Shown piece after piece: positions 4,017-20,300 of a stretch of DNA of 20,300 bases. The notes below the pieces were generated by a model. It had not been told where the DNA came from. It worked only from the letters and a program-made list of their open reading frames with translations, and made no database searches. How positions within the stretch are numbered: position 1 is the stretch's first letter; each line of letters begins with the position of its first letter. Source of the stretch: a virus. The DNA lies in the IMG/VR virus record IMGVR_UViG_3300025120_000741, positions 1-20,300 of that record, one strand, 5' to 3'. The position numbers and the translations under genes were made by a program.

Positions 4017-5666
4017 ATGTCTCAGATAACTCTTAGATTATTAAAAGGTTCAGCTCTAGCTCAATCAGAGGTGGATGATAACTTTAGGAATTTAATTAAT
4101 TCCGCATCAGTAGATATTACTACTGGTCAACTCTCCTTATTCACTTCACAGAGTTCAGGAGCACTAAAAGAAATAGACGTTAGACCAACTTGGATTGGGT
4201 ATAGCGGTTCGTCAACTACAGGAGTAGCATCAGTAACTGGTTCACTATTGGTCACTGGGGATATTACTGCACAACAGTTTAATACAGAAATAATTTCTTC
4301 ATCTACCATATTTGAATCAGGTTCAACTATATTTGGAGATGATAGTAACGATACTCATCAAATAACAGGTAGCTTGCTAGTAACAGGCTCTCAAACTATT
4401 ACCGGTAGTTTAAACGTATTAGGTCAATATACGACTAATAATATAATCGAAGCAACCGGACAGTCTAGTAAAATTAGATTTCATTATGATGAATTTGATA
4501 ACTTACCATCAGCCACTACTTGGCATGGTATGTTTGCTCACGTACATGCAACAGGTTCTGCTTATTATGCTCACGGAGGTAACTGGATAAGATTAGCTCA
4601 ATCAGCTTCATTTGCTACTCCAATAGCAACATTAACAGCTGCTAGTGCTTCCCATGAAACTTCTATAAATGCTTTAAACGCTAAAACATTACTATCCTCA
4701 TCAGTACAGATATCAGGATCAATCTCTGGTTCATTAGGACCTAACGCTACTTTTATAAGAGCACTTAATGCTGACTCTATCTCTGGTTCATTCGGAGGTA
4801 TTACAGCAGCATCTGTTTCAGGTTCATTAGGTGATAATGCTACATTAATTAGATCATTAACAGGAGCAGTTATATCAGGTTCATTAGGTGTTAATGCTAC
4901 ATTAATTAGATCACTAACAGGTGCTTCTATCTCTGGTTCGTTTGTAGCAACTTCTGCAAGTTTAGCTACTAACATTGCAACAAACCTTGCAAGTGTAGGT
5001 ACATTAACAACAGATAAAGCTAATAAAAGTGAAATAACAGGTTCGTTTGCTGTTGATAGTGGTTCATTTAGTACGAGGTTAACAACTATAGAAGGAGCTT
5101 CAGCATCTGCACCAGCAGGAACAGTATCAGGATCAGCTGTAGGAACAGCTCAAGGACAAATAAAAATAAATGATGTAGATGTAAATGTAAAAGATCTTCA
5201 AACTACTAGCGATGTTACATTCGCCGACATAACTGGTTCAGGTTTACTTTCAGTAACCGGAACAGGTACTTCTCAATTTTCTAGTCACTTACAAGCACAT
5301 TGTTTAGGTATAGGAACAGCTCCATCAACAACAACAGGAGAGATTAGAGCTGCAGGGGATATTACTGCATATTATTCTTCAGATGAAAGATTAAAAGAAA
5401 ATATTAATAATATAAAAGAGCCTTTACAAAAACTTTCTTATATTAATGGAGTAGAGTTTGACTGGATACCTAAAGAAGGTATTCACTCTAACGAAGGGCA
5501 TGATATAGGAGTCATAGCTCAACAAATCGAAAAAGTGCTACCTGAGTTAGTAACTGATCGAGAAAACGGATATAAAGCCGTACGTTATGAAAAAATTGTC
5601 GCGTTATTGATTGAAGCGGTTAAAGAACAGCAGTTACAAATCGATGAGCTAAAGTCAAAGCTCTAG
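4017..5666 (+). CDS. Tail fibre/spike with S74 intramolecular chaperone
   Basis: A 549-aa fibre protein. The N-terminus (MSQITLRLLKGSALAQSEVDD) is of a kind that often begins phage fibres and probably holds the attachment site. Residues about 60-330 are Gly/Ser/Thr repeats (TGSLLVTGS, ISGSLGxNATLIR) expected of a trimeric beta fibre. The C-terminus from about residue 452 is a Peptidase_S74 chaperone: SSDERLKENI carries Ser455 and Lys460, the spacing of the Ser/Lys dyad in endosialidase-type tips, followed by GVIAQQIEKVLPE and VRYEKIVALLIEAVKEQ. In this family the chaperone drives trimer folding and then cuts itself off just before that serine, leaving a mature fibre of about 454 residues. It probably contacts the host receptor. 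Confidence 0.85.
   Translation: MSQITLRLLKGSALAQSEVDDNFRNLINSASVDITTGQLSLFTSQSSGALKEIDVRPTWIGYSGSSTTGVASVTGSLLVTGDITAQQFNTEIISSSTIFESGSTIFGDDSNDTHQITGSLLVTGSQTITGSLNVLGQYTTNNIIEATGQSSKIRFHYDEFDNLPSATTWHGMFAHVHATGSAYYAHGGNWIRLAQSASFATPIATLTAASASHETSINALNAKTLLSSSVQISGSISGSLGPNATFIRALNADSISGSFGGITAASVSGSLGDNATLIRSLTGAVISGSLGVNATLIRSLTGASISGSFVATSASLATNIATNLASVGTLTTDKANKSEITGSFAVDSGSFSTRLTTIEGASASAPAGTVSGSAVGTAQGQIKINDVDVNVKDLQTTSDVTFADITGSGLLSVTGTGTSQFSSHLQAHCLGIGTAPSTTTGEIRAAGDITAYYSSDERLKENINNIKEPLQKLSYINGVEFDWIPKEGIHSNEGHDIGVIAQQIEKVLPELVTDRENGYKAVRYEKIVALLIEAVKEQQLQIDELKSKL
4722..4943 (+). repeat. 57-nt tandem repeats in tail fibre
   Basis: Units of 57 nt (19 aa) encode (I/V)SGSLGxNATLIRxLTGAx. 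Clear copies begin at 4722, 4815 and 4872. A diverged or shortened copy starts at 4779, and a further ISGSF stub at 4929. The last two full copies are nearly identical in DNA, which indicates recent duplication. The number of units would set the length of this fibre segment. Confidence 0.8.
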
Positions 5667-5684
5667 CGACACAAACCAAATTAT

Positions 5685-6185
5685 ATGGAAATGACATACC
5701 CTTCCTGGACATACCAGGGTAGGATCTTCAACGACATATTAGACTTTCCAGAAGGAACTTACGGATTTATTTATGAGGTTTTTCATAAACCCTCCGGTCT
5801 TAAGTACCTTGGTAAGAAAGTTCTACGCTTTGAAAGAAATAAAAAGTTAGGCAAAAGAGCATTAGAGGCTCTGCGAGAAGAAAGAAAAGCAAACGGCATA
5901 GGAGGACGTACTCCCCTTAAGCAGAAGATCATTACCGAATCTGATTGGAAAGATTACTACGGTTCTCATCCAAAGATAAAACAACTTGTTAAAGACTCTA
6001 CGGACTTAAGATTAGATTTCGAAAGAAAAATATTAGATTTAGTACCAAATAAAAAGCTGTTAACTTATTATGAATGTAAGCACCTATTTATAAAGGACGT
6101 CTTAGAGGAGTATAGTCATCAGTATATAAATGATAACATTCTAGGAAAGTTCTATAGAAAAGATTTCAATAATGAAACTAAGTGA
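5685..6185 (+). CDS. GIY-YIG-like endonuclease-fold protein
   Basis: A 166-aa protein. Residues 26-45 (YGFIYEVFHKPSGLKYLGKK) fit the GIY-YIG core: GFIY at 27-30, then YLG at 41-43 with an 11-residue offset. A later helix (RLDFERKIL) offers a conserved-type Glu. In T4-like phages related proteins are annotated as Seg-like homing endonucleases or simply as conserved phage proteins. Here it is a free-standing gene just after the fibre, a place where mobile endonucleases are often found, but short GIY-YIG proteins in marine T4-like phages may also be ordinary conserved genes. Catalysis is not proven. Its end overlaps the next start by 14 nt. Confidence 0.6.
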   Translation: MEMTYPSWTYQGRIFNDILDFPEGTYGFIYEVFHKPSGLKYLGKKVLRFERNKKLGKRALEALREERKANGIGGRTPLKQKIITESDWKDYYGSHPKIKQLVKDSTDLRLDFERKILDLVPNKKLLTYYECKHLFIKDVLEEYSHQYINDNILGKFYRKDFNNETK

Positions 6186-6468
6186 TATTATACTTAACGA
6201 AGATAACCACGGAGATGGTTATGAAAAAGGTAACATTAAGTTAATGGGCGATATGATTTTACCTATCGATAAAGAAATGGTATTACAAGCACAAGATGAT
6301 AAGTATAATAGAGGTTTGCTAGTAACAAGTAAAAAAGATAGAAGTTACGATATAGCGTATTGGGCTGATAAATTTGAACCTTATCCAATAGAAGTAGAAA
6401 TAGACGGTAAATCAGTTTCTAAAGATGCAAAAAATATAAAATTACTTTTTCACCCTGAAATGAAATAA
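6172..6468 (+). CDS. Small protein with capsid-targeting-like leader
   Basis: A 98-aa protein of unknown function. It begins MKLSDIILNE, the first of several genes here with an M-K-L-x-x-I-I-L start ending in (I/L)-x-E (Leu8-Asn9-Glu10). In T4 a comparable ten-residue leader sends internal proteins into the prohead and is removed after the Glu by gp21. The remainder is a mixed alpha/beta sequence with YDIAYWADKFEPYPIEVEIDG and no motif I recognise. It overlaps the preceding gene by 14 nt and is followed one base later by the next start. Confidence 0.6.
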   Translation: MKLSDIILNEDNHGDGYEKGNIKLMGDMILPIDKEMVLQAQDDKYNRGLLVTSKKDRSYDIAYWADKFEPYPIEVEIDGKSVSKDAKNIKLLFHPEMK

Positions 6469-7514: not shown

Positions 7515-7636
7515 CTTTAGGTAGTTACGTAGGAGGAACTAAAAAAAAGAGACCTGGCATTCATGCTAAGTCAAAAACATCGAAACTTAAAACTTCAAAA
7601 AATTATCAAAAGAGGTATAAAGGACAAGGAAAATGA
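7499..7636 (+). CDS. 45-aa basic protein
   Basis: A short gene running from ATG at 7499 to TGA at 7634-7636, encoding 45 residues that begin MAKGLTLGSY and end NYQKRYKGQGK. It is very basic (many Lys, one acidic residue or none) and resembles small Lys-rich proteins I recall from marine phage genomes. It overlaps the preceding gene by 16 nt and the next by an ATGA junction. It fills exactly what would otherwise be a 118-base gap, which is strong support that it is real. Nucleic acid binding, perhaps in the head, is plausible but unproven. Confidence 0.7.
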   Translation: MAKGLTLGSYVGGTKKKRPGIHAKSKTSKLKTSKNYQKRYKGQGK

Positions 7637-7950
7637 AATTAAAAAATATCATATTAGAATCAGATTACTGGACCAGATTTAAACCAGAAGCTGAAAAACT
7701 TGAAAATGAGTTGAAAGATACTTATGATAGGGATGATATTAATGTTTCTATTATACAACACTCTAGCGGTGACTACGCAATGGGCAACGTTACTATTAGA
7801 GTAAGAAGAAATCTACCTGAAGATGAATACCAGAAGATGAAAGACTTTATATCCTCCAAAGGATTCAAAATTACCGGCGGTATGAATATGGCTGACGACG
7901 ATGGTGATAGGTATTATTACCCTAATATAAAATTTGAGTTTGAATTATGA
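7633..7950 (+). CDS. Small protein with capsid-targeting-like leader
   Basis: A 105-aa unknown that begins MKLKNIILE. Ile7-Leu8-Glu9 fits the (I/L)-x-E head-protease motif. The mature part (about 96 aa) has a coiled or helical start (WTRFKPEAEKLENELKDTYD), a beta strand pattern (GNVTIRVRRNL), a helix (EDEYQKMKDFISSKGF) and a final strand. It looks like a small alpha/beta fold with no catalytic motif. It is coupled by ATGA to both neighbours. Function unknown; packaging into the head is inferred only from the leader. Confidence 0.6.
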   Translation: MKLKNIILESDYWTRFKPEAEKLENELKDTYDRDDINVSIIQHSSGDYAMGNVTIRVRRNLPEDEYQKMKDFISSKGFKITGGMNMADDDGDRYYYPNIKFEFEL

Positions 7951-9833: not shown

Positions 9834-10601
9834 ATGAATATTCTCGAACAAAACGAGAAAAAAAGATTAGATTTTAACCCCGAATTAAAGCAAATAAATT
9901 TTTTAGACCGTAGGGTCTATAAGCGAGGCGAAGGAGTATATTACCCGTCCGTAACTACAATACTCCAGTATATGCCCAAAAATAAGTTCTTCGAAACATG
10001 GATGAAGGACGTTGGGCATAACGCCGACCTTATAATGAGGAAAGCAGGTAAAGAAGGTACTCAAGTACATGAAGCAGCTGAACAGCTAGTAGAAGGTAAA
10101 GAAGTATCCTGGATGGATGATTTCGGTAAAGCTAAATATTCTCAGCTTGTATGGGAGATGATCCTTAAGTTTGCTAATTTTTGGAAAACATATAAACCTG
10201 AATTAATATCATCTGAACAATTCGTATGGTCTGATAAGTATAAATTTGCTGGTACTGCAGATATAGTCTGTAAAATGAACGATGAAGTGTGGCTAATAGA
10301 TTTAAAAACGTCTAATAGCATACATAAGTCATATGACCTACAATTAGCTTCTTATGCAAAAGGATTAGAAGAGAGCAGGGGAATAAAGATAGAGCGTACG
10401 GGGATACTTTGGTTAAAAGCTCAGTCTCGAGGTCCCTCCAAACAGAAAAAAATTATACAGGGCAAAGGATGGAAATTACTACAGGTAGATGATATAGAAA
10501 AAAACTTTGAACTGTTTAGACTTATATATAAATTATATGAATTAGAGAACCCTAATACAGAACCTATTTATAATAGCTACCCAACAACAGTAAAAGTATG
10601 A
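9834..10601 (+). CDS. PD-(D/E)XK exonuclease, RecB/Cas4-like
   Basis: A protein of about 255 aa. The catalytic core is visible: GTQVHEAAEQ (His of the RecB-type helix), AGTADIV with the first Asp, WLIDLKTS with the D-x-K pair, and QLASYAK, the Q-x-x-x-Y motif of RecB-family nucleases. It probably processes DNA ends in phage replication, recombination or host DNA breakdown. I chose ATG at 9834; an in-frame TTG at 9819 would add five residues, but nothing favours it. It is coupled by ATGA to the lipoprotein gene and follows the primase block. Confidence 0.8.
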   Translation: MNILEQNEKKRLDFNPELKQINFLDRRVYKRGEGVYYPSVTTILQYMPKNKFFETWMKDVGHNADLIMRKAGKEGTQVHEAAEQLVEGKEVSWMDDFGKAKYSQLVWEMILKFANFWKTYKPELISSEQFVWSDKYKFAGTADIVCKMNDEVWLIDLKTSNSIHKSYDLQLASYAKGLEESRGIKIERTGILWLKAQSRGPSKQKKIIQGKGWKLLQVDDIEKNFELFRLIYKLYELENPNTEPIYNSYPTTVKV

Positions 10602-11497
10602 AAAAACTATTAATTACATCCCTTATAATTCTTTTAACAAGCTGCTCAACATTTAGAGTCTCTACTCTTTATTATGATCCTATATACGGATCTGATGGAA
10701 CAGAAATAGTAACCGATGTAATTGATAATGAATTTCAATTAGCAAGAAAACTTCAAACTGACTTTACATTCAGATATAATTTTGCTCAATATGCTATGAA
10801 CCAACCTTACAGTTGGTACTTTAACAACCGTGCACTTAACAGATATAACATGTGGAATCCATATAGTAGATTTGGCATGTATACTAATAGTCATAACTTT
10901 TGGATGAATTGGGCATTTGATTTTCCTTACAGTAATTTTGGTTATAACTGGAGAGATCCTTTTGGTTTTAACAACTATTATTCTGGTTGGCAAAATAGAC
11001 ATGCTTTTAGTTGGAATAGTTGGAACTATAGACCTTATTACAATCAATTTAGAGTATATAATAATAATAGAAGAGATATGAATATATCTTATAATAGAGG
11101 TAGAAGAGGCTCTAGTAATAATGTAGGTAGAAAAATTGCAAACGTGACAAATAATAATACTGTTAATTATAATCAACCTAGAAGAACTATTAAAAGTAAT
11201 ATCGATAATGTAGTAGAAACTATTAAAAGAGAAAATAGAGGAAGGTCTATAAGGGTATATACAAACCCTAATAATGTACCAGATGTAATTGTTAGAGGTA
11301 ATAATTCTATAAATAATAATAATATTAGAATAAACCGAAGACCAAATACTAATCCAACTAACTATAACAACACAAGAAGTAATTATAGATCAACACCTAA
11401 TGTTAGAAGTAATTCTTCATCTACAAGGTCATCTAATTCAAGCACAAGAAGCTTAAGTAGATCTAGTAGAGGAGGAAGAGGAAATAATAACAATTAA
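10598..11497 (+). CDS. Asn/Tyr/Trp-rich lipoprotein
   Basis: A 299-aa predicted lipoprotein. MKKLLITSLIILLTSC is a signal peptide with lipobox LTSC and lipidated Cys16. The residues after Cys (STFRV) lack the acidic/basic export tag of surface lipoproteins in Bacteroidota, so a periplasmic position is more likely. Residues about 70-160 are full of Trp, Tyr, Phe and Asn (for example WNSWNYRPYYNQF). From about residue 160 to the end the chain is low-complexity Asn, Arg, Ser and Thr, ending GGRGNNNN. I recall similar Asn/Tyr-rich lipoproteins from Bacteroidota genomes. It could alter the cell envelope during infection, block superinfection or aid lysis; none of this is shown by sequence. Confidence 0.65.
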   Translation: MKKLLITSLIILLTSCSTFRVSTLYYDPIYGSDGTEIVTDVIDNEFQLARKLQTDFTFRYNFAQYAMNQPYSWYFNNRALNRYNMWNPYSRFGMYTNSHNFWMNWAFDFPYSNFGYNWRDPFGFNNYYSGWQNRHAFSWNSWNYRPYYNQFRVYNNNRRDMNISYNRGRRGSSNNVGRKIANVTNNNTVNYNQPRRTIKSNIDNVVETIKRENRGRSIRVYTNPNNVPDVIVRGNNSINNNNIRINRRPNTNPTNYNNTRSNYRSTPNVRSNSSSTRSSNSSTRSLSRSSRGGRGNNNN

Positions 11498-11498
11498 T

Positions 11499-12431
11499 AT
11501 GAAACTATCAACCATTATATTAGAAGATCGTAATAAACCTAAAGCTGTAATTATGGCAGGAGGAGCAGGATCAGGTAAAACTTATTTACTTAATCAACTT
11601 AACTTAGATAGTCTAACTCAGTTTAATCCTGATAAGTACGTAGAAGATAAAGACCATCCTTATTTTAATAATTTAGGAGCAGCCAGTAGACAAGTTGAAA
11701 AAGACGTACTTGCAGCAGCTGAAGATAAAATTAGTTTAGTATGGGATACTACTGCCTCTGGTGCTAAGTTTGATGAAAATTTAAATAAACTACTTAAAGG
11801 TGGTTACGATGTTTATATGGTCTTAGTATATACTCATCCAATGATATCTTATATATCTAATTTTCAAAGAGGAAGAAACATTCCTGCTTCTTCAGTCTTT
11901 TTAACTTGGAGAAACGCTTATCAAAAGATAGGAGATTTTAGAAAAAAATTAAAAGGAAACTTATCTATTTTTGTAAATGATAGAGGCGGAGAATTTAAAA
12001 AAGAAATAGAAGCATTTAATACTGCAGCTAAAAACGGTACTACAGGAATAAAAGATTACTTAAAAGCTTATAATGAAAAAACAGGAGCAGGTAAAAGCTC
12101 TTTCTTCAAACCAGTAGTAATGTCTCAAGAAGAAGAGCAAGAATTTAACAAAGCTGTAGTAAACGTAGATTGGAATAAAAATAACAGATCAGAAGATAAA
12201 GCTCTTAAAACAGCTTTCTTAAAAACTTATCAAAAGATAGGTACCGGACCTGGAGAAGATAAACTTAAAGATGCAGTAAAAAAATATAGAGATGGTAAAG
12301 TCAGTAGTGACGAAAGAAATGATGCAGTTTTAAACAGTATTGCCGATATGGTATTTAATCCTACGTTTCAAGAATTACTACAACATTCATCACCTCAAGA
12401 AATAGATCAAAAAGTTCAAGCGTTTTTATGA
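11499..12431 (+). CDS. Zeta-toxin-like P-loop kinase with capsid-targeting-like leader
   Basis: A 310-aa protein beginning MKLSTIILE, the same leader as short genes upstream. The kinase domain starts immediately after: AVIMAGGAGSGKT has the Walker A loop at 21-28, then FNPDKY, a conserved LVWDTTASG strand (about residue 85), LVYTHP and a RGRNIP segment resembling the substrate side of zeta toxin/AAA_33 kinases. Zeta toxins phosphorylate UDP-N-acetylglucosamine; the substrate here is unknown. The C-terminal half (about 190-310) is helical and rich in Lys/Glu. There is no antitoxin-like partner next to it. The leader suggests a kinase carried in the virion and delivered with DNA, like T4 Alt. 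Coupled by ATGA to the next gene. Confidence 0.7.
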   Translation: MKLSTIILEDRNKPKAVIMAGGAGSGKTYLLNQLNLDSLTQFNPDKYVEDKDHPYFNNLGAASRQVEKDVLAAAEDKISLVWDTTASGAKFDENLNKLLKGGYDVYMVLVYTHPMISYISNFQRGRNIPASSVFLTWRNAYQKIGDFRKKLKGNLSIFVNDRGGEFKKEIEAFNTAAKNGTTGIKDYLKAYNEKTGAGKSSFFKPVVMSQEEEQEFNKAVVNVDWNKNNRSEDKALKTAFLKTYQKIGTGPGEDKLKDAVKKYRDGKVSSDERNDAVLNSIADMVFNPTFQELLQHSSPQEIDQKVQAFL

Positions 12432-13708
12432 TAGCATTATATCCAGGAGCATTTAAACCACCTCATAGAGGTCATTTCGAAGTCGTTAAAAGTTTACTTA
12501 ACGGTACTCATAATGGTCAGGTATATACTAAAGATAATTATAAAGATGCTGGTTCATCTTCTCTTTCTGGAAAAAAGAGTATAGTAGATAAAATTAATAA
12601 GGTAATAGTATTTCCTGGAGGAGGAGAAAGAAATGGAATAACTAAAGGAGAATCTATAGCTATATGGAAAATATATTCTAAATATTTACCTGGAATAGAA
12701 GTTATGGATGGTGAAAAGAATCCTATGTTTGCTGCTAAAGATTATGCTAAAGCAAATACTAATGATAACTTTTATGCTATTACAGGAATAAGGAGTGAAG
12801 AAGATTTAATCGATTTGAGAAGAATTACTACTTTTACAAATACTCCTCATGTACAAGGTTTAGTTATACCTGCTGCTAAAGGAAATAACGTAAGGGCTTC
12901 ACAATTGAGACAAGCTGCCTTAAGTGGTAATTTAGATCAATTAAGAGATTTTTTTCCTGAACAACTAAACAGAGAAGAGTTGCTATCTATATTAAAGATG
13001 CTTAAAGATAATATTATATCAGAAATAATGAACGAAAAGATGGAGAATCTTTTTGAAGAAATGTTTGTATCTGAAGCTTCGTTTTTTGAAAGTGATACTG
13101 AAAAAATAGATAGAGCTATAGAAAGACTATCAATAGATTCTAAATTTAAAGTAGACGATATAAAGAGACAACTTGGAATTTACTTTTCAGATGAAAAAGA
13201 TAAAGCTTCTGATTTTATTAAAAACTTTATTAACGATACTTTATATAAATTTACCGAACCAACAGTTATTAAAGCCTACTTAAAAGGTGAAAGATTAGAT
13301 GTACTAAAAGAAGAACAAGATATACCAGAATATACAAAACATATAGCTTCCGTTTTAGAATACATGATAGATGAGGGTATGAATGTTATTCCTTTACCTG
13401 AAGTAAAAACTATAAAGGATGAAACTAATGCAGCAAACTTTTTTGGTAGAACTGCATATTATGATCCTAATGTAAAAGAAATAGTTTTATATGTAGAAGG
13501 TAGACATCCTAAAGATATAGTTAGATCGTTTGTACATGAAATGATTCATCATATACAGAACCTAGAAGGAAGATTAGAAGATATAGGTACTACTAATACT
13601 AATGAAGATGAAAATTTATTAGAAATTGAAAAAGAAGCATACTTAAAAGGTAACATTACTTTTAGAAACTGGGAAGATTCAGTTAAAAAAGTTGGAGATG
13701 AAGGATAA
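12428..13708 (+). CDS. NMNAT-like nucleotidyltransferase fused to zincin domain
   Basis: A 426-aa two-domain protein. Residues 1 to about 190 are an HxGH nucleotidyltransferase: MIALYPGAFKPPHRGH with His13/Gly15/His16, and VRASQLR (155-161), which stands for the ISxTxxR signature. Such enzymes join nucleotides to NMN, pantetheine-phosphate or related acceptors. Residues about 215-426 form a second domain with VHEMIHH: His370-Glu371-x-x-His374, and a likely third zinc ligand Glu403 in EKEAY, as in gluzincin-like metalloproteases. Between them is a helical linker (MENLFEEMFVSEASFF) with a VSE-A site that a head protease might cut. The substrate of neither half can be read from sequence. It overlaps the kinase gene by ATGA. 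Confidence 0.72.
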   Translation: MIALYPGAFKPPHRGHFEVVKSLLNGTHNGQVYTKDNYKDAGSSSLSGKKSIVDKINKVIVFPGGGERNGITKGESIAIWKIYSKYLPGIEVMDGEKNPMFAAKDYAKANTNDNFYAITGIRSEEDLIDLRRITTFTNTPHVQGLVIPAAKGNNVRASQLRQAALSGNLDQLRDFFPEQLNREELLSILKMLKDNIISEIMNEKMENLFEEMFVSEASFFESDTEKIDRAIERLSIDSKFKVDDIKRQLGIYFSDEKDKASDFIKNFINDTLYKFTEPTVIKAYLKGERLDVLKEEQDIPEYTKHIASVLEYMIDEGMNVIPLPEVKTIKDETNAANFFGRTAYYDPNVKEIVLYVEGRHPKDIVRSFVHEMIHHIQNLEGRLEDIGTTNTNEDENLLEIEKEAYLKGNITFRNWEDSVKKVGDEG

Positions 13709-13740
13709 AGTTCGTATATTTAAGTATACAAATTAAGGTT

Positions 13741-14106
13741 ATGCATTTACGAACTACAAAAAGATTAGCTGAAAACTACTTAAAAAACTGTGTTAGCCTT
13801 TATGGTCATAGTAAACATCACGAAACTACACCCTATATAGAGTTTCAACCATATGTGCATTCAGTTTATACAGAAGATGATAATCCTGAAGCTGAATATA
13901 TTTTTGACTACAACACTATAGTTATATATTATAAGAACATAGAAGATGCAGAACATTTAGCTCAAACTATTGTTCACGAATATCAACATTACTTACAGTC
14001 TCCTTCATGGATGACTAGGTATTATAATATGGGTCACTGTTACTCAGATCATCCATATGAGATTGCAGCATTTGCTGAAGAAAAAAACTGGAAATTAGTA
14101 GCCTGA
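13741..14106 (+). CDS. Small HExxH zincin-like protein
   Basis: A 121-aa protein with a minimal metalloprotease core: strand FDYNTIVIYY, then TIVHEYQHY with His79, Glu80 and His83, and DHPYEIAAF giving a likely third ligand Glu107. The spacing from the HExxH motif to this Glu (24 residues) is typical of small zincins. It is too short for a large substrate domain, so it may act on a specific phage or host protein, or be a structural relative. It follows another zincin domain in the preceding gene after a 32-base gap, and abuts the next gene (TGATG). Confidence 0.65.
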   Translation: MHLRTTKRLAENYLKNCVSLYGHSKHHETTPYIEFQPYVHSVYTEDDNPEAEYIFDYNTIVIYYKNIEDAEHLAQTIVHEYQHYLQSPSWMTRYYNMGHCYSDHPYEIAAFAEEKNWKLVA

Positions 14107-14651
14107 TGAAAAAAAGTTTAATAGATTTATTAGAAGCTTATCCTATACCAGAGGTAAAAGAAAAACCACCGTATAAAATATACTGTGATATGGATGGAGT
14201 ACTTACTAATTTTGAAAGTAGATTCGAACATTTTACAGGAATGCATCCGCAAGAGTATGAAAAAGCAAAAGGATTACCAGCTTTCTGGAATCTTATAGAC
14301 GTTGAAGTAGGAGTCAGATTTTGGATTGGTATGCCTTGGATGCCTCAAGGAGAACAGTTATGGAACTTTATAAAGCCTTACCAACCAGATTTACTTACCT
14401 CTCCTTCTAGGGATAATAATTCTAGATTAGGAAAAAATCTATGGGTAAAGAATAACCTTAACCCTAAACCTAAAGTTATATTTGCTTATTCGAAAGATAA
14501 ACAAAGATACGCAAATGAGAATACTATATTAATTGATGATAAACCATCTAATATAAATGATTGGGCATCTAAAGGCGGTATTGCTATTAGATGTAAAAAC
14601 GGAAACGTTGACCACGTTATACAAAAATTAAAAGAGCTAGGGTATGAGTGA
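14106..14651 (+). CDS. HAD 5'(3')-deoxyribonucleotidase-like, with capsid-targeting-like leader
   Basis: A 181-aa HAD-superfamily phosphatase of the NT5C/YorS type. The motifs are in order: CDMDGVLTNF with nucleophile Asp28 and Asp30, a TSPSRD segment for motif II, a Lys in FAYSKDKQ for motif III, and IDDKPSN with Asp144 and Asp145 for the metal site. It would remove phosphate from nucleoside monophosphates. The N-terminus MKKSLIDLLEAYP precedes the fold and ends in Leu-Leu-Glu-Ala, a perfect (I/L)-x-E cut before Ala, as for T4 gp21. Active mature enzyme would start around residue 11. The start overlaps the preceding stop; the end overlaps the next gene by 8 nt. Confidence 0.78.
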   Translation: MKKSLIDLLEAYPIPEVKEKPPYKIYCDMDGVLTNFESRFEHFTGMHPQEYEKAKGLPAFWNLIDVEVGVRFWIGMPWMPQGEQLWNFIKPYQPDLLTSPSRDNNSRLGKNLWVKNNLNPKPKVIFAYSKDKQRYANENTILIDDKPSNINDWASKGGIAIRCKNGNVDHVIQKLKELGYE

Positions 14652-15219
14652 ATCTTTACTTAAAAAAGAATTTAAACAATCAGACGTTCAAAGGGTAAGA
14701 AACTTAGTAAATAAAGACTATACCTCTAAAACTAAAGATCAGGTTGGGTATAAAAAAACTTTAGAATTTCATGCTGAAGGAGATATTTGGGAAGAAAATG
14801 GTAAAGAGTGGACTATTAAAAATGGTTTAAAACAAAACATTACCAAGTTAGATAAAGCTAAATCAGCAACTAGAATTCCACTTACATGTCCCAAATGTGA
14901 AGGCTCTATGAGACACCACTTACATAAAAAGATGTACCGTATACATGGATTTTGCTTTGACTGCACAGTAGATTACGAAGCATCACTTCGAAAAGCCGGA
15001 CTTTATGAGCAATATGAAAAACAAATGCTTCAGAATAATATGAACGGATTTCTTCAAGATTTAGAGCTGTGGTTCCAAGATAAACTATCTGAAGTAGATA
15101 CATTTGTTACTGAACAAGGGGATGTAGAAGACTGGAAGCATAATAAAAAACAACACCAGGATAACATTACTAAAAAAGTTCTTGAATATTCCTCTATAGT
15201 ACGTAAGCGTTTAGGATAA
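14644..15219 (+). CDS. Conserved zinc-ribbon phage protein
   Basis: A 191-aa protein with one zinc ribbon: Cys82, Cys85 (CPKC), then Cys104, Cys107 (CFDC), separated by a His-rich stretch (RHHLHKKMYRIHG). A helical C-terminal half follows (LRKAGLYEQYEKQM, then LELWFQDKL). From memory it resembles a conserved unknown of T4-like marine phages. The ribbon may bind nucleic acid or a protein partner. The start overlaps the nucleotidase by 8 nt, and MSESLLKKEF does not fit the leader pattern well. Confidence 0.65.
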   Translation: MSESLLKKEFKQSDVQRVRNLVNKDYTSKTKDQVGYKKTLEFHAEGDIWEENGKEWTIKNGLKQNITKLDKAKSATRIPLTCPKCEGSMRHHLHKKMYRIHGFCFDCTVDYEASLRKAGLYEQYEKQMLQNNMNGFLQDLELWFQDKLSEVDTFVTEQGDVEDWKHNKKQHQDNITKKVLEYSSIVRKRLG

Positions 15220-15246
15220 ATTATATATTTATAGTAAATTGCAGTA

Positions 15247-15609
15247 ATGACTCAAAAAGACTTAATTGAATCAGTATTAACTGAAATCAAACACATTAAG
15301 ACTCACATGCCGAATGGTGAGTTAAAGCAGATGGCTAATGATTTTGAAAAGATGAAAAATGATGTTTCAGATTTAAAACGTACTCTACTTAACCCAGACG
15401 ATGGAGTCATAGTAAATACTAATAAAAATACTGAAAGCCGTATGTACCATGAATCTAGAGCAGAGCTCTATGCTGATAATCTAAGTAAGCTCAATGAACT
15501 ACAATCTTGGAAGCAAGGAGTCAATAGAGCACTATGGATTATATTCGGTATACTAGCAACCGTGGTAATTAGAATGTTAATAATGCATTCTGAACAAGTA
15601 GGACAGTAA
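15247..15609 (+). CDS. Coiled-coil protein with C-terminal membrane segment
   Basis: A 120-aa protein. Residues 1 to about 90 are helical and coiled-coil-like (DFEKMKNDVSDLKRTLL, then LSKLNELQSWKQG). Residues 95-113 (ALWIIFGILATVVIRMLIM) are a single membrane span, leaving a seven-residue tail. The plan resembles XhlA-type phage membrane proteins, which take part in lysis, so a holin or lysis-accessory role is possible, but no endolysin is seen nearby. The start lies 27 bases after the previous stop, and the end overlaps the next start (TAATG). Confidence 0.6.
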   Translation: MTQKDLIESVLTEIKHIKTHMPNGELKQMANDFEKMKNDVSDLKRTLLNPDDGVIVNTNKNTESRMYHESRAELYADNLSKLNELQSWKQGVNRALWIIFGILATVVIRMLIMHSEQVGQ

Positions 15610-16334
15610 TGACAAATCAAGAAGTACAAAATATTACATTAGAGTCGTTAAGAGACTGGTTTAAGAAAGAGAAATGGGTTCGCATCTCTTCTTCTGGTAA
15701 TATAGCAGGACCTTGTGGTACTTCTAAAAATAAAAAGAACCCAGACAGGTGTTTACCAAAAGCAAAAGCACAGAGTTTAACTAAAGGCCAAAGAGCCGCT
15801 ACTGCTGCAAAGAAAAAGAAAGCAGGGAGTAAAGGAAAGACAGTCGTGAAAAATACAAAAAAAGCAACAGTAAAAAAAGAAGGCCTATGGGCTAATATAA
15901 ATGCTAAGAAAAAAGCAGGTAAGAAATCTTCTCATAAAAACTCTAATGCATATAAAGATGCTAAAAAAGCAGGTAATGCACTAAAGCAAGAAACAAAAGG
16001 AGCTCCAAAAGGACACTACTTCACTAAATCAGGTAACTTAGTTAAAGGAACATTAAGTAAAGATGCTAAAGAAAGAGGAGCTAGACTAAGTGATCCAAAA
16101 GATAAACAAAGATCTAAAATACCCCCAGTTACTCAATACTCTGAAATTACAAAAGAAGATATAAAAAACTTTGTAATAGGGACTATAGCAGAAATGCAAA
16201 ACGAAAATACTATTACTGAGAAAGACGATAGGTGTACTAGATTAGCTAAAAGTAAATACGATACTTGGCCATCAGCTTATGCTTCAGGTGCAGTAGTTAG
16301 ATGTAGAAGAGGAGAAATTTGGAAGAAAAAATAA
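15609..16334 (+). CDS. Basic three-module protein with Cys pairs, probable internal/DNA-binding
   Basis: A 241-aa Lys-rich protein built from modules. Module 1 (about 15-75): WVRISSSGNIAGPCGTSK with Cys36 and Cys48, then LTKGQRAATAAKKKK; I believe this is the domain annotated as DUF5872. Module 2 (about 91-125): EGLWANINAKKKAGKK. Module 3 (206-241): DDRCTRLAKSKY, WPSAYASGA, VVRCRRG, with Cys209 and Cys232. Each module occurs, as I recall, on its own or mixed in other marine phages. The linkers are basic, as in histone-like or internal head proteins. FVIGTIAEM contains an I-A-E that might be cut. It starts TAATG with the membrane protein. Confidence 0.65.
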   Translation: MTNQEVQNITLESLRDWFKKEKWVRISSSGNIAGPCGTSKNKKNPDRCLPKAKAQSLTKGQRAATAAKKKKAGSKGKTVVKNTKKATVKKEGLWANINAKKKAGKKSSHKNSNAYKDAKKAGNALKQETKGAPKGHYFTKSGNLVKGTLSKDAKERGARLSDPKDKQRSKIPPVTQYSEITKEDIKNFVIGTIAEMQNENTITEKDDRCTRLAKSKYDTWPSAYASGAVVRCRRGEIWKKK

Positions 16335-16362
16335 GGTAAAATAAACCAATTTAGTTATATTA

Positions 16363-17121
16363 ATGGAGTTAATTTTTAGTTTCTCTCTTCAAATAGGAGA
16401 TTATAAAGAAGTTAATTATGTTTTAGATCTCTACAAAGCTTCAATGATCAAAGCACGAGATTATGGTCATTCAATTAAATTGTACGGTTGTGATTTTACT
16501 TTAGAATACTTAAAGGGTTATTATGATAGTAAAGTAAATATATCTAATATTGATCTTTTAATAACAGATGATCTTAAAATGTATATACATTCTGTAGAAC
16601 CAGCAGGAAGTATTACTTTTGACGGTGATATTATTCTTAATTCTAAATTAGTAATAAATAAATCAGCTGATATAGTTTTTGAAAGAAGAGAAAGAATGAG
16701 GCATAGAATTCAAGGTAAAAAGCATTATATGCCACCTCTTTTAAAAATTTTTAGCAAGTATAAAGTTGGCAAACATATCCATAATTTTAATTATAATGAA
16801 CTTCGTTATTACAACGTCGGAGTACTGTGCTTTAGAACCGAACAGATAAAAAATTCTTTTTTAGATGCATATTATAATATTAGAAAGTTTTATTTAGATA
16901 CTATAGAACCTAAAGAAAAATTAATACCTAAAAATATAATTGTTTCTTCGATGCTTACTCAATATTATTTTGCCTGTATAGTAAACACTAATAATATAGA
17001 GTGTGATTTTACACTTAGAAATAGTGAAAATTCATACATGCATTACATGGGTGAGTTTAAGTTAATTAAAAAAATTATAGATCCTATACTATCTATTATA
17101 GATAAAAGACCGCTAATCTAA
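16363..17121 (+). CDS. GT-A-like glycosyltransferase candidate
   Basis: A 252-aa protein. The pattern fits a GT-A fold: an N-terminal strand (ELIFSFSLQIG), a helix (LYKASMIKARDYG), then ITFDGDIIL with DxD at Asp87-Gly-Asp89 for a metal and a nucleotide-sugar, followed by YYNVGVLCF, a common acceptor-side strand in such enzymes. No membrane segment. It could glycosylate phage proteins (for example the Ser/Thr tail of a virion protein here) or host surface sugars; acceptor and donor cannot be told from sequence. It is set between two Cys-pair modular genes, 28 bases after one and 9 before the other. Confidence 0.55.
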   Translation: MELIFSFSLQIGDYKEVNYVLDLYKASMIKARDYGHSIKLYGCDFTLEYLKGYYDSKVNISNIDLLITDDLKMYIHSVEPAGSITFDGDIILNSKLVINKSADIVFERRERMRHRIQGKKHYMPPLLKIFSKYKVGKHIHNFNYNELRYYNVGVLCFRTEQIKNSFLDAYYNIRKFYLDTIEPKEKLIPKNIIVSSMLTQYYFACIVNTNNIECDFTLRNSENSYMHYMGEFKLIKKIIDPILSIIDKRPLI

Positions 17122-17130
17122 ATTAGGTAT

Positions 17131-17352
17131 ATGACAAGATTAACTTTAGCACAAATAATAGGTGAAATACTTGCTGCCGAAAACTTTAAAGACGGCAAGA
17201 AGAAAGGTAAGTCAAGACCCGGCCGTGTAAAAAAATCAGGTGCATCATGCAAAGGATCAGTAACATCGTTAAGAGCTAAAGCTAAAAAACATGGTGGTGA
17301 AAAAGGTAAAATGTACCATTGGTGTGCTAATATGAAGAGCGGTAAAAAATAA
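17131..17352 (+). CDS. Small basic Cys-pair protein with leader
   Basis: A 73-aa protein. MTRLTLAQIIGEILAAE resembles the leader of its neighbours more loosely, with Ile10-Gly11-Glu12 a possible cut site. The rest is a compact basic module: RPGRVKKSGASCKGSV with Cys40, then LRAKAKKHGGEKGKMYHWC with Cys65 and a Lys-rich end. I recall this module as widespread in T4-like marine phages, often at protein ends. A DNA-associated, packaged protein is plausible. The end overlaps the next start by one base (TAATG). Confidence 0.65.
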   Translation: MTRLTLAQIIGEILAAENFKDGKKKGKSRPGRVKKSGASCKGSVTSLRAKAKKHGGEKGKMYHWCANMKSGKK

Positions 17353-18041
17353 TGTTTAAAAAAAATACTTATACAGTTATTGAAGACCTTTATTTAGGTA
17401 ACCCTGCTGAACAAGAGGTCAAATGGACTGAATCTTTTTTTGATAGAGAAGGTTATGAATTAAATGCCATTGAAAAAGAGTTTTATGCTTCTAATCAAAT
17501 ACCTATCTTAGTTGAAGAAAGACAAACAAGAAGAGTTCCAGACGACGCTTTAAAAGTACAACTACAACACTGGTATTCTGAAATTGAGTCTCATCCTAAC
17601 TTACTTATCGATCATGCTCATATACTTCATAGACTTGCATATAAAGGAGAAGCCTTAGAGCAAATAAAAGAAAAAGCAAAAGAATACCCTCACTTATGGA
17701 GGATGGTTCATATGAAACCTAAATATGGAGCAGACTTTGCTGTAGATTGGGTAGATGAAGACCAAGCAGTTGAAATATTTCATTTTGAACTAGATGCTAG
17801 GAATTCTGAAGAATTTTTATTAAATTTAAATAAACTAGAGAAGTTTATAGATTCTACTGATTGGGAAAATAAAGCTAAAGAGCTTTTAAGCAAAAAAAAT
17901 GAGTGGAAACATTTAAATGAATATGATCAAGCAATTTATAAAGCTGAGTTGTTTGACTTTAACAAAATAGATATAAAGTATTTTGAAGACGACTACCTTA
18001 ATAAACCCTATCTATTCAGCTATCTTAAAGTTATTGATTAA
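17352..18041 (+). CDS. Conserved phage protein of unknown function
   Basis: A 229-aa acidic protein that I cannot assign to a named family, though the segment YGADFAVDWVDEDQAVEIFHFE resembles a conserved unknown I recall from T4-like marine phages. The N-terminus has no leader (MFKKNTYTVIEDLYLG). The sequence is mostly helical, with a short beta region around residues 120-150 and no Cys cluster, membrane segment or catalytic motif that I can see. It is coupled to the small basic gene before it. Confidence 0.55.
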   Translation: MFKKNTYTVIEDLYLGNPAEQEVKWTESFFDREGYELNAIEKEFYASNQIPILVEERQTRRVPDDALKVQLQHWYSEIESHPNLLIDHAHILHRLAYKGEALEQIKEKAKEYPHLWRMVHMKPKYGADFAVDWVDEDQAVEIFHFELDARNSEEFLLNLNKLEKFIDSTDWENKAKELLSKKNEWKHLNEYDQAIYKAELFDFNKIDIKYFEDDYLNKPYLFSYLKVID

Positions 18042-18080
18042 TCTATCTATTTATTATTATAGCTATAAAACAGTAGAATA

Positions 18081-20300
18081 ATGACCTATAAAGAACTAAA
18101 CGACCGTTTATCTAAATGTCAGCTTACTTTAGAAAAAATTAAAGACGGAACATATACACCTAGCAAATCTCAAAATATTACCAAAACAACTAAGAATCTT
18201 GAGCTACTAAAAGAATCTCTTATTAAACAATTAAAAGAAGCAGAAAAAGGTATGATACATACTGATGATGAAGCGAAAGCAAAAGACCTAGCTGATGCTG
18301 GAGCTAATGTAAAGCTCACTAAAGAACAGGACGGAATTAAATTTAGTGTAGACGAAACAAAAGCTATAGCTAAAAGTGTAGGTAAAGCTGTAGCCATGAG
18401 CGTAAAAAGCTTAGGAGATGAAATAGGTAGCATGAAAGCTACAAATATAGAAGAAAATTCTTTCGATATTGATATTACTTATAAAAACGATAATGAAGAT
18501 TCTTTTTCATTTTATATTACTGATGATACTTTACATTTAACTGATTTTTCTTTTGACAAAGAATTAACAGACGTAGGAGTTAAACCATCAGGAGAAGCAC
18601 AGGTAAATATAGATCATTTAGCTAATGAACTTACAAAGCATTTTAAATCTCGAAATGAAGTAGTAAATGCTGATGATACTAAAGGATTAAAAAAGCTTTC
18701 TAAAGCATTAAAAGGTTCTAGTAAAGCTCATCTAGATCAGAAGAAAAAATTAGATAAAGATACTAAAGGTATAATTAAACTTTCTAAGTCTTTAAAAGGT
18801 TCAAGCAAAGCTCATTTAGATCAAAAGAAAAAACTAGATAAGCTAATTAATACAGAAAATATCTCAGAAGGAGAGTTTGACGAATACGAACCACAGCACT
18901 TCGATATATGCCCAGGAGCAGAAGCTTTAAGGAACGAACTTATTAAAGACGGTATGACTACTGCCGAGCTTGGTGAATGGACTAAAATACATGACGACTT
19001 ATTTAAATTAGAAAAAGCAGTTATTGCGTCTAATAATGCAACTCCTGCAGCTGTTGAGTATGCTGAAAAAGTAAGAGAGAAGCTTATTCATATTTCTAGA
19101 GACTTAGGTATAAATGCTGATAAAATTCATTACCTAAAAGGACATGTTGATAAAATAAAAGATATAGCAGCTGGTAAACTTAATGAAGCACCAGACGGTG
19201 TACATTATATAAAGGTAGAAAGTACAGAATTAATGGAAGCATTAGGTATTCTTGAAGCAGCCTTTTTTAATGATGAACATATAAAGTTTGAACTTAACGA
19301 CCCTAATATTATTTACATAAGAGGAGCTGAAGAATCTGATATTCATGATGCTTACGAAGAATTACAACAGAACGGTATTATAGTTGATGAGACTAGTATC
19401 GGAGTTGAGTTACAAGAAATGGATATGAATGACCCAGTGCTTATGAAATTAAGAGCTGATAAAATGAAAAAGAAAAAAATAACTCCTACTACCACATCTA
19501 GGAGTTCTATAATTATATCTAAATTAAAAGCTAAAAGAGCTGAAATAATGAGAGATATGGAACAGGAAGCAGAACCAGAAGGAGGTCCAATAGCAGATAA
19601 GTACGGCAGTATGCTTAATAAGATTGATGCTGCAATAGCAAAAGCAAGTGGCCTAAAAGAGATGGACGAAGATATGGATGTCGGGCATCAAGATGATGAA
19701 CCTGGCATGCTACAAACTACTGCATATGAAACTGCTCAATATGCTGCTAAACTAGTCAAAAAATTACAGAAGTATGAACAGTTTGACGGAGAAGTAGATT
19801 TTCCTAACTGGTGGCAATCTAAATTAATCTTAGCTAAAGATTATATGCAAAAAGCATTTCATTATTTAGATTCAGAAGAAAAGCAACCTGCTATAGATCA
19901 ACTTGCTTTAGAAGGAGACGGTATGACAACTAAAATTAAACCTTCACAAGGCGATCCTACTAATATGGCTTATACTGATAAAGTAAAAGAAGGTAGAGGA
20001 GATGGAGATGCTATTAATGACATTATAATTAATATGGCTAATGAGGACGATATCTCTACTAGAGAAGCAGCTGAAGAAATTATAGATCATATTACTCATA
20101 TATTCATTGATACTAAAGGTACTGATGAAGGTAAATATAAATCAGATGCTCAAAGAAAAGCAATCTATGCTACCAAAGCTGAAAAAGAAGGTGTAAACGA
20201 AAGATTAAGCGGTGATGCAAAAGAAGCAATTTATGATCTACAGAATATATTAGATCAAGCTGCTCAATTAGGAGATGAAGCTAGACAGATTGTAAAAGAT
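18081..20300 (+). CDS. Very large partial protein, possible internal head polyprotein
   Basis: An open frame from ATG at 18081 that runs 740 codons to the window edge without a stop, so it is 3' partial. It starts MTYKELNDRLSKCQLTL and is mostly helical and charged. Residues 205-254 hold a tandem repeat (LKGSSKAHLDQKKKLDK twice, 28 residues apart), probably a coiled coil. Four (I/L)-x-E-(A/G) sites lie at ISEG (261), LNEA (367), LMEA (384) and ILEA (390), the motif of T4-type head protease cleavage. Residues about 550-615 hold a module with FPNWWQSKLILAKDYM that I recall from other marine phage proteins. A processed internal head protein is inferred. The gap before it (18042-18080) has no other feature. 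Confidence 0.7.
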   Translation, partial: MTYKELNDRLSKCQLTLEKIKDGTYTPSKSQNITKTTKNLELLKESLIKQLKEAEKGMIHTDDEAKAKDLADAGANVKLTKEQDGIKFSVDETKAIAKSVGKAVAMSVKSLGDEIGSMKATNIEENSFDIDITYKNDNEDSFSFYITDDTLHLTDFSFDKELTDVGVKPSGEAQVNIDHLANELTKHFKSRNEVVNADDTKGLKKLSKALKGSSKAHLDQKKKLDKDTKGIIKLSKSLKGSSKAHLDQKKKLDKLINTENISEGEFDEYEPQHFDICPGAEALRNELIKDGMTTAELGEWTKIHDDLFKLEKAVIASNNATPAAVEYAEKVREKLIHISRDLGINADKIHYLKGHVDKIKDIAAGKLNEAPDGVHYIKVESTELMEALGILEAAFFNDEHIKFELNDPNIIYIRGAEESDIHDAYEELQQNGIIVDETSIGVELQEMDMNDPVLMKLRADKMKKKKITPTTTSRSSIIISKLKAKRAEIMRDMEQEAEPEGGPIADKYGSMLNKIDAAIAKASGLKEMDEDMDVGHQDDEPGMLQTTAYETAQYAAKLVKKLQKYEQFDGEVDFPNWWQSKLILAKDYMQKAFHYLDSEEKQPAIDQLALEGDGMTTKIKPSQGDPTNMAYTDKVKEGRGDGDAINDIIINMANEDDISTREAAEEIIDHITHIFIDTKGTDEGKYKSDAQRKAIYATKAEKEGVNERLSGDAKEAIYDLQNILDQAAQLGDEARQIVKD
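18693..18842 (+). repeat. 84-nt tandem repeat in large ORF
   Basis: Two copies, 18693-18758 and 18777-18842, spaced 84 nt (28 residues, four heptads) apart. Both encode KLSK(A/S)LKGSSKAHLDQ plus KKKLDK. They differ at several third positions, so the repeat is old enough to have gathered silent changes while the peptide was kept. Confidence 0.85.

Follow-up and report, generated by a model that had tools for sequence, protein, structure and literature searches.

A putative modular head polyprotein of a T4-like marine phage, with exchange points at prohead-protease-type motifs

The 20,300-nucleotide viral record IMGVR_UViG_3300025120_000741, analysed at its full length (hereafter, the window), ends inside a large gene and raises the question of what kind of protein this gene encodes. 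The open frame starts with an ATG at position 18081 on the + strand and runs to the window edge at 20300 (18081..20300), yielding 740 codons without a stop, as the initial annotation had stated; the record comprises 20,300 bases only, and the 3' end of the gene falls beyond it. The gene, whose product is termed P0001, belongs to a T4-like marine phage related to Flavobacterium phage immuto (NC_055915), and the gene order of the window is that of immuto: tail fibres, a GIY-YIG-like gene, primase, exonuclease, a nicotinamide mononucleotide (NMN) adenylyltransferase-like gene, a deoxyribonucleotidase and then the large chain (immuto gp79). In immuto, gp79 is followed by three further genes, terminase, portal, protease, a protein in the gp22 position and gp23, the P0001 homologue being located shortly upstream of the terminase-portal-protease-capsid genes.

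We propose that P0001 is probably a modular head polyprotein, from which the prohead protease would release small proteins internal to the head. In this proposal, folded or helical modules of roughly 25-110 residues would be strung on short linkers carrying the motif phi-x-E (phi being I, L, V or M), the type of site cut by prohead proteases of the gp21 family, and the long chain would be packed into the head and then cut into many small proteins. At the sequence level, the proposal draws on the modules themselves, their reordering, exchange points at phi-x-E, the presence of a protease, and the occurrence of phi-x-E in both this protease and gp23.

Full-length relatives share modules that are arranged in different orders. 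The whole P0001 sequence recovered 15 loci from viral contigs, and module F (residues 528-611) at least 543 confirmed relatives, 80 of those listed being kept for analysis. Using 19 module representatives, these 80 F-containing open reading frames (ORFs) displayed 59 architectures; immuto, for instance, carries F before E, and the window E before F. The motif phi-x-E was found three residues or fewer before the module start in 158 of 237 distinct left contexts, compared with 15.0% of random positions in the same proteins, a count that is descriptive, as the module edges were set with the window sites in view. The motif preceded modules D (9/9 contexts), D2 (14/15), E (13/14), H (6/6), H2 (14/14), J (11/11), K (6/6), Zn (13/13), O (7/8), Q (9/12) and M (12/17) most consistently.

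Exchange points, defined as the edges of pairwise matches and thus independent of the chosen module edges, coincide with [ILVM]-x-E far above random positions. In raw edge counts without de-duplication, the motif reached 4-5 times background, but an [AFGWY]-x-E control was also raised 2-2.7 times at match ends because every chain holds module F, which ends in LALE; module F was therefore masked in later tests, and matches were de-duplicated. Among 66 non-redundant module-F proteins, [ILVM]-x-E was present within positions -2 to +4 at 21/29 starts (random 4.4, standard deviation 1.9, highest of 1000: 11) and at 17/28 ends (random 4.8, standard deviation 2.0, highest of 1000: 11), 12 of the 28 ends lying exactly at the motif's glutamate. 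A replicate on 554 ORFs lacking module F, which required an N-terminal phi-x-E and excluded breakpoints in the first 24 residues, gave 14/25 starts and 16/40 ends at ≥70% identity (random 2.7 and 6.1), and 24/61 starts and 32/76 ends at ≥60% identity (random 7.9 and 10.4). A coarser de-duplicated test likewise returned 96/246 starts and 122/246 ends (random 56.1 and 55.7).

The same comparisons bear on the possibility that P0001 is an ordinary multidomain phage protein, acting intact in the virion or in the cytoplasm, whose domains are shuffled at flexible glutamate-rich linkers where phi-x-E is incidental. The linkers do appear somewhat glutamate-rich, since [KRDNSTQ]-x-E was also raised at replicate starts (11/25 versus 4.8 at random) and, modestly, at starts in the coarse test (95/246 versus 79.7). 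In the 66-protein set, however, a hydrophobic residue at P3 proved specific: [KRDNSTQ]-x-E was found at 10/29 starts and 11/28 ends (random 6.8 and 7.1), and [AFGWYCP]-x-E at 5/29 and 3/28. The further controls gave 2/29 and 2/28 for [ILVM]-x-D, and 3/29 and 5/28 for [ILVM]-x-K. Moreover, phi-x-E is also the motif that closes the N-terminal peptides of the adjacent genes, and a protease of the matching class is present in the clade. We regard an ordinary multidomain protein as improbable.

The segments of P0001 follow one another along the + strand (↓ marking a junction or candidate site after E). The chain opens with a helical hairpin (residues 1-53, 18081..18239; AlphaFold2 helices 3-22 and 33-56) carrying LKE at E45 and E53, where [ILVM]-x-E is kept in 49/52 and 46/53 relatives, respectively. 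It continues with an alpha/beta domain (18240..18680), modelled confidently for residues 84-194 and with a low-confidence end, and with two basic 28-residue repeats (residues 200-255, 18678..18845). These repeats, already noticed in the initial annotation, occupy residues 200-227 and 228-255, are identical at 24/28 positions, have a computed isoelectric point (pI) of 10.3 (residues 201-256) and are predicted to be helical at low confidence (predicted local distance difference test, pLDDT, 40-63 per block for residues 201-260). A candidate site ISE↓G (E263, 18861..18869), kept in 7/15 relatives within the low-confidence segment 258-269, precedes module C (residues 264-369, 18870..19187), a predicted helical bundle delimited by the module scan, with block pLDDT 92-97 for residues 281-360.

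The boundary site LNE↓A (E369, 19179..19187) is kept in 22/29 relatives, is situated in a loop between helix 351-363 and strand 374-379, and marks the beginning of 17 BLAST matches. Module D (residues 370-446, 19188..19418), with a predicted ferredoxin-like fold, ends at LQE↓M (E446, 19410..19418), which is kept in 15/29 relatives, has 8 match starts and 6 match ends nearby, and falls in a short, lower-confidence helix (442-449, block pLDDT 68). Module E (residues 447-527, 19419..19661) ends at LKE↓M (E527, 19653..19661), followed by MDE at E530, in a segment (526-546) with pLDDT <50 and 42 match starts nearby. Module F (19662..19913) shows the pattern GHQDDEP..GEVDFPNWW..LALE, and module G (residues 612-637, 19914..19991), joined to it by ALE↓G, may be the tail of F rather than a separate piece. 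The site VKE↓G (E637, 19983..19991), kept in 23/30 relatives within the low-confidence segment 599-640, is followed by module H (residues 638-683, 19992..20129) and, across TDE↓G, by module I (residues 684-707, 20130..20201). The last boundary, VNE↓R (E707, 20193..20201), is kept in 15/19 relatives and introduces module J (residues 708-740, 20202..20300), which is cut by the window edge.

The closest relative (L002), a complete protein of 819 amino acids, offers a natural experiment. Three stretches of the window, 10006-15881, 15954-19399 and 19668-20201, are shared with L002 at 90-94% DNA identity (blastn), and L002 lacks module E, which falls between the break at 19399 and the resumption at 19668, although it is otherwise about 91% identical to the window. 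The modules differ past residue 707, L002 carrying K, L and M after VNE where the window carries J, and the DNA match stops at 20201, exactly where the VNE codons end.

P0001 holds sixteen [ILVM]-x-E sites in all, and they do not carry equal weight. The initial annotation had counted four strict (I/L)-x-E-(A/G) sites, three of them inside residues 367-393, and had read this cluster as a processed linker. There are in fact five such sites (starting at residues 51, 261, 367, 384 and 390), and the three in the cluster are indeed present. The cluster is uncommon under shuffling (2000 composition shuffles: mean 1.66 sites, P of at least four 0.08, P of a 26-residue stretch with three 0.002), but we judge that two of the three sites are not linkers: LMEA and ILEA (E386 and E392, 19230..19259) lie within the predicted helix 381-394 of the ferredoxin-like domain (10-residue block pLDDT 94 and 93) and are kept in only 7/29 and 10/29 relatives. 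Thus, LNE↓A at E369 is the only boundary in this stretch, both conserved and flanking predicted domains, and the linker reading fails for the other two by the refuting condition that the initial annotation had set, a position inside a folded domain together with poor conservation. The more informative sites are E369, E446, E527/E530, E637 and E707, most of which the strict pattern misses, while non-boundary sites show partial conservation (E92 18/39, E125 14/39, E299 4/16, E333 4/17, E437 9/28). The further suggestion that the frame encodes a precursor of several proteins receives indirect support from the exchange points at [ILVM]-x-E and from the conserved sites between predicted domains.

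For structure prediction, 38 of the 91 rows of the initial alignment (A5), mostly misaligned fragments, were dropped, leaving 53 rows (A6). The resulting AlphaFold2 model of P0001 (mean pLDDT 73.3, predicted template modelling score 0.36) consists of separate confident blocks (residues 1-56, about 90-150, 281-360, 371-440 and 481-520) with weak stretches in between. Boundary sites E263, E527/530 and E637 lie in low-confidence segments, E707 at the edge of one, and E369 in its loop (block pLDDT 77). In the model of L002 residues 558-819 (mean pLDDT 73.2 for the best model and 58.9-67.0 for the other four), all four module boundaries of this C-terminal half (46, 70, 122 and 184) are in low-pLDDT segments, which cover 47/262 residues. 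Fold searches yielded no match in the PDB for the whole P0001 model at E <= 0.001; among viral folds, one uncharacterised uncultured phage protein matched at E 9.3e-09, with template modelling scores of only 0.16/0.20. VIA-align superposed residues 372-441 of the model on 6u2d_B (Z 8.1, root-mean-square deviation 2.5, 63 residues); its coverage is essentially residues 371-442, a predicted fold that is common and uninformative on function. Sequence searches of solved structures gave no relative of P0001 at E <= 1, and an alignment-based search (A7) only weak coiled-coil-like matches (best E 0.0042).

The proposed cleavage would call for a suitable protease. Immuto gp70 is a Peptidase_S77 protein (PF03420, E 8.9e-35) and gp66 matches Gp23 in Pfam; protease homologues are present in 5/6 large relative contigs, and a cognate protease is thus encoded by the clade, the window record being too short to include that gene. 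T4 gp21 is reported to cut after L/I-x-E and to be itself processed (PMC9026906). In 5/5 aligned phages, the clade protease carries phi-x-E at about residue 17 and L-(N/Q)-E near its C-terminus, and gp23 carries (I/V)V(A/S)E ahead of its mature-looking part; judged from the alignments, phi-x-E in both proteins lies near the expected processing points.

Proximity to head genes also suits the main rival explanation, in which P0001 would be a prohead core scaffold like T4 gp22, gp67 and gp68, cut at many phi-x-E sites into pieces that, rather than serving as cargo, would for the most part be expelled to free space for DNA. T4 core proteins are described as being cleaved into several fragments, most of which exit the head (PMC9026906), several P0001 segments are acidic, and its N-terminus lacks phi-x-E at residues 8-20. 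Against a scaffold, a separate acidic protein is encoded between the protease and gp23, in the gp22 position, in 5/5 phages; 59 architectures in 80 ORFs would be unusual for an essential scaffold and recall the variable T4 internal proteins; and several modules are predicted to be compact domains. P0001 has no PHROG or Pfam assignment that would speak for or against the gp22/gp67/gp68 family, and, in the available parts of the literature, interchangeable modules are not described for these T4 proteins, which share with P0001 multiple gp21-type sites along the chain and a location by the protease gene. Cargo is favoured by variability and domain character, scaffold by acidic pieces and the missing simple targeting peptide; we consider a scaffold rather unlikely. 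As a separate observation, the immuto gp22-position protein (gp67; 25697-26938 of L017) contains a duplicated segment, GFEQWLDSVSAQMDKFGKNNPTIQ, whose copies are preceded by VNE or LEE.

Besides the raised [KRDNSTQ]-x-E counts, several observations weigh against a head polyprotein. Among the window junctions from C to J, phi-x-E is found at 6/8, being absent from F-G and H-I, and left contexts with the motif are sparse for modules C (2/7), G (1/4), I (2/9), L (6/14), F (19/43), R (4/10), S (7/18) and T (3/7). At E527, the exact-column motif is kept in only 6/44 relatives, and at E530 in 19/51. Module F is poorly predicted (blocks pLDDT 32-63), and the conserved E45 is located inside a confident helix (block pLDDT 95), which makes a cut there disfavoured. 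P0001 has no phi-x-E with its glutamate at residues 8-20, the first being E45, so a plain T4-like targeting peptide is missing. Finally, 6/11 window segments have a clearly acidic computed pI (4.1-5.2, compared with 6.3 for segment G), unlike the T4 internal proteins, which are described as small and basic (PMC9026906).

Genes neighbouring P0001 do carry short N-termini of the targeting type. We considered the block from the GIY-YIG gene to gp23 (25-29 kb) in four large relatives (G001-G004), with genes of at least 75 codons taken from a simple longest-ORF caller at the first ATG rather than from a trained gene finder. An [ILVM]-x-E with E at positions 8-20 was present in 67/109 block genes compared with 140/658 elsewhere (odds ratio 5.9, p 2.4e-16), a p value that overstates independence because these four phages and immuto are mutually homologous; the fairer family-level count, including immuto, was 36/57 versus 60/297 (p 3.4e-10). 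In the same 109 genes, the next four windows along the protein gave 25, 22, 36 and 21, and four control motifs showed no excess over outside genes. In a sliding-window analysis, the block overlapped the highest window in 4/4 of these phages, the highest non-overlapping window reaching 0.27-0.33. In immuto, the proportions were 22/31 in the block and 35/162 outside, and the three windows that follow gave 14/31, 5/31 and 12/31. This count excluded 8/239 coding sequences, of which six lay on the minus strand and two ran across piece edges, and the immuto block had been picked after the sequences were seen, hence the use of the four large relatives as the main test.

The typical peptide reads M-K-L-x-K-L-(L/I)-L-E followed by A, S or G (59 distinct peptides). 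It resembles the T4 capsid targeting sequence, whose first 10 residues are reported to suffice for packaging (PMC9026906). As a positive control among T4 proteins, a phi-x-E whose glutamate falls at 8-20 is present in gp68, gp21, gp22 and gp23 but absent from gp67; gp23 has a further one at E65. The immuto homologue of P0001, gp79, starts with MKKLIRIVE and fits the pattern, unlike P0001 itself.

In the window, such capsid-targeting-like N-termini, recognised by sequence and belonging to the class enriched in relatives, are MKLSDIILNE↓ (6172..6201), MKLKNIILE↓ (7633..7659), MKLSTIILE↓ (11499..11525), MKKSLIDLLE↓ (14106..14135), MTQKDLIESVLTE↓ (15247..15285) and MTRLTLAQIIGE↓ (17131..17166, on a 73-residue basic protein), all on the + strand. 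The third belongs to a Zeta_toxin-family P-loop protein (11499-12431; PF06414, E 5.3e-12) whose homologues bear similar N-termini in all four large relatives, making it a candidate head-delivered enzyme. The fourth belongs to a 5'-3' deoxyribonucleotidase-like protein (14106-14651; phrog_2643, E 6.4e-22) that matches from residue 21 on, past MKKSLIDLLE↓A.

Modules preceded by different N-termini are also encoded by the gene that follows the large chain and by the one immediately preceding the protease. In a sorting of module-bearing ORFs by their starts, for which three of the module representatives were still in preliminary form, 55 were MTYKE-like, 23 LILE-(S/A)Y-like and 10 TEKYRAV-like; another 20 opened with a different phi-x-E start, and no known start was recognised in 18. 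In addition, a small basic protein of the window (15609-16334) is composed of modules R and S, both also present in large chains of other phages, and its own start, NITLE, does not fit phi-x-E.

Other genes of the window showed features of their own. The product of 37-1233 has low-complexity TPSVTPS-type repeats forming its C-terminal tail, and that of 4017-5666 is a tail-fibre-like protein with the C-terminus SDERLKENI..., a motif that resembles an intramolecular chaperone. The product of 5685-6185 and immuto gp100 are called 'NAD synthetase' (phrog_447 and the immuto record), yet they match Pfam SegE_GIY-YIG (E 2.2e-21), and the label is probably a misannotation. The product of 12428-13708 has an NMN adenylyltransferase-like N-part followed by a HEMIHH motif, with no Pfam match at E 0.01, and the adjoining ORF (13741-14106) carries HEYQH; from these motifs, both are possible metallopeptidase-like domains.

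Library searches gave P0001 no name: no PHROG was assigned, and the Pfam family DUF4367 was discarded as sub-threshold (14.1 bits versus a cut-off of 22.1). Six other chains matched PHROGs of unknown function or none, with no functional annotation for any chain in the libraries searched. By tblastn against 50,697 phage records, whole P0001 matched four immuto records and no others; of three P0001 segments searched against cultured phages, one matched the four immuto records only and two gave no match. A prophage origin was considered and rejected, as only 5 module F relatives were found in 84,980 species genomes, all on contigs of metagenome-assembled genomes.

The absence of recognisable domains is relevant to another reading, in which P0001 would be one of the polyvalent proteins of Iyer et al. 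2017, conflict proteins with several domains that include a peptidase processing the chain itself. Such proteins are described as phage-encoded mosaics with many domains per chain, thought to enter the host with the DNA, and their authors compare them to viral polyproteins (PMC5512222); P0001 shares the mosaic make-up of many domains in a phage-encoded chain. Their processing is ascribed there to embedded peptidase domains, whereas P0001 would be cut by the prohead protease at the motifs between modules. In P0001 and six relatives, all Pfam matches were weak and stayed below the family cut-offs; hence no peptidase or known effector domain of their own is seen at that sensitivity, and this reading seems very remote.

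Known head-internal proteins resemble the proposed polyprotein in part. T4 IPI, IPII, IPIII and Alt are described as head-internal precursors whose N-terminal targeting peptide is cut by gp21 after (L/I)-x-E, with internal-protein mature parts that are highly variable between phages (PMC9026906, PMC3012670). The likeness lies in the short targeting-type N-termini of the genes neighbouring P0001; as far as these sources describe them, the T4 proteins are separate genes with one cargo each and a simple targeting peptide, whereas P0001 comprises many modules in one chain with the cut motif between them and lacks such a peptide. In the giant phages phiKZ, SPN3US and 201phi2-1, many head-internal proteins are reported to be processed C-terminal to glutamate by a gp21-related protease (PMC10052503, PMC5694885). 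Their ejection proteins are similar in having propeptides with several cut sites, but the cuts reported in the available parts of these papers strip N-terminal propeptides from single proteins, together with the protease's own C-terminus, and the SPN3US motif is A-x-E. In the open-access literature we found no description of such a modular head polyprotein, subscription papers being outside the scope of the search, nor a virion proteome of immuto or its clade among titles and the opening parts of abstracts.

Taken together, we favour the reading of P0001 as a modular head polyprotein, and we infer its incorporation into the head, cleavage, retention and ejection. We further propose that modules could be gained, lost and reordered with the chain still cuttable, because every junction would carry the same short motif. 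More tentatively, and with greater doubt than for P0001 itself, a large clade of marine T4-like phages might deliver an exchangeable set of small proteins in polyprotein form, with the prohead-protease motif doubling as cut site and evolutionary joint. Modules would then be traded between three or more adjacent precursor genes and separate single genes whose N-termini are capsid-targeting-like, and the injected payload, including the zeta-toxin-family P-loop protein and the nucleotidase, might be quickly rebuilt as a plug-in cassette for anti-defence or takeover.

The family is common, with at least 543 viral-contig relatives of module F alone. If the proposal is true, a large set of unnamed late genes of marine T4-like phages would become a readable parts list, the motif serving to forecast both the proteins that enter the head and the start of every mature piece. 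P0001 and its relatives would represent a phage counterpart of viral polyproteins, made by a capsid protease, and would provide a rule, taken from nature, by which proteins of choice could be loaded into phage heads. Immuto has been isolated and its host is in culture, and it would allow a direct test of what phages inject besides DNA.

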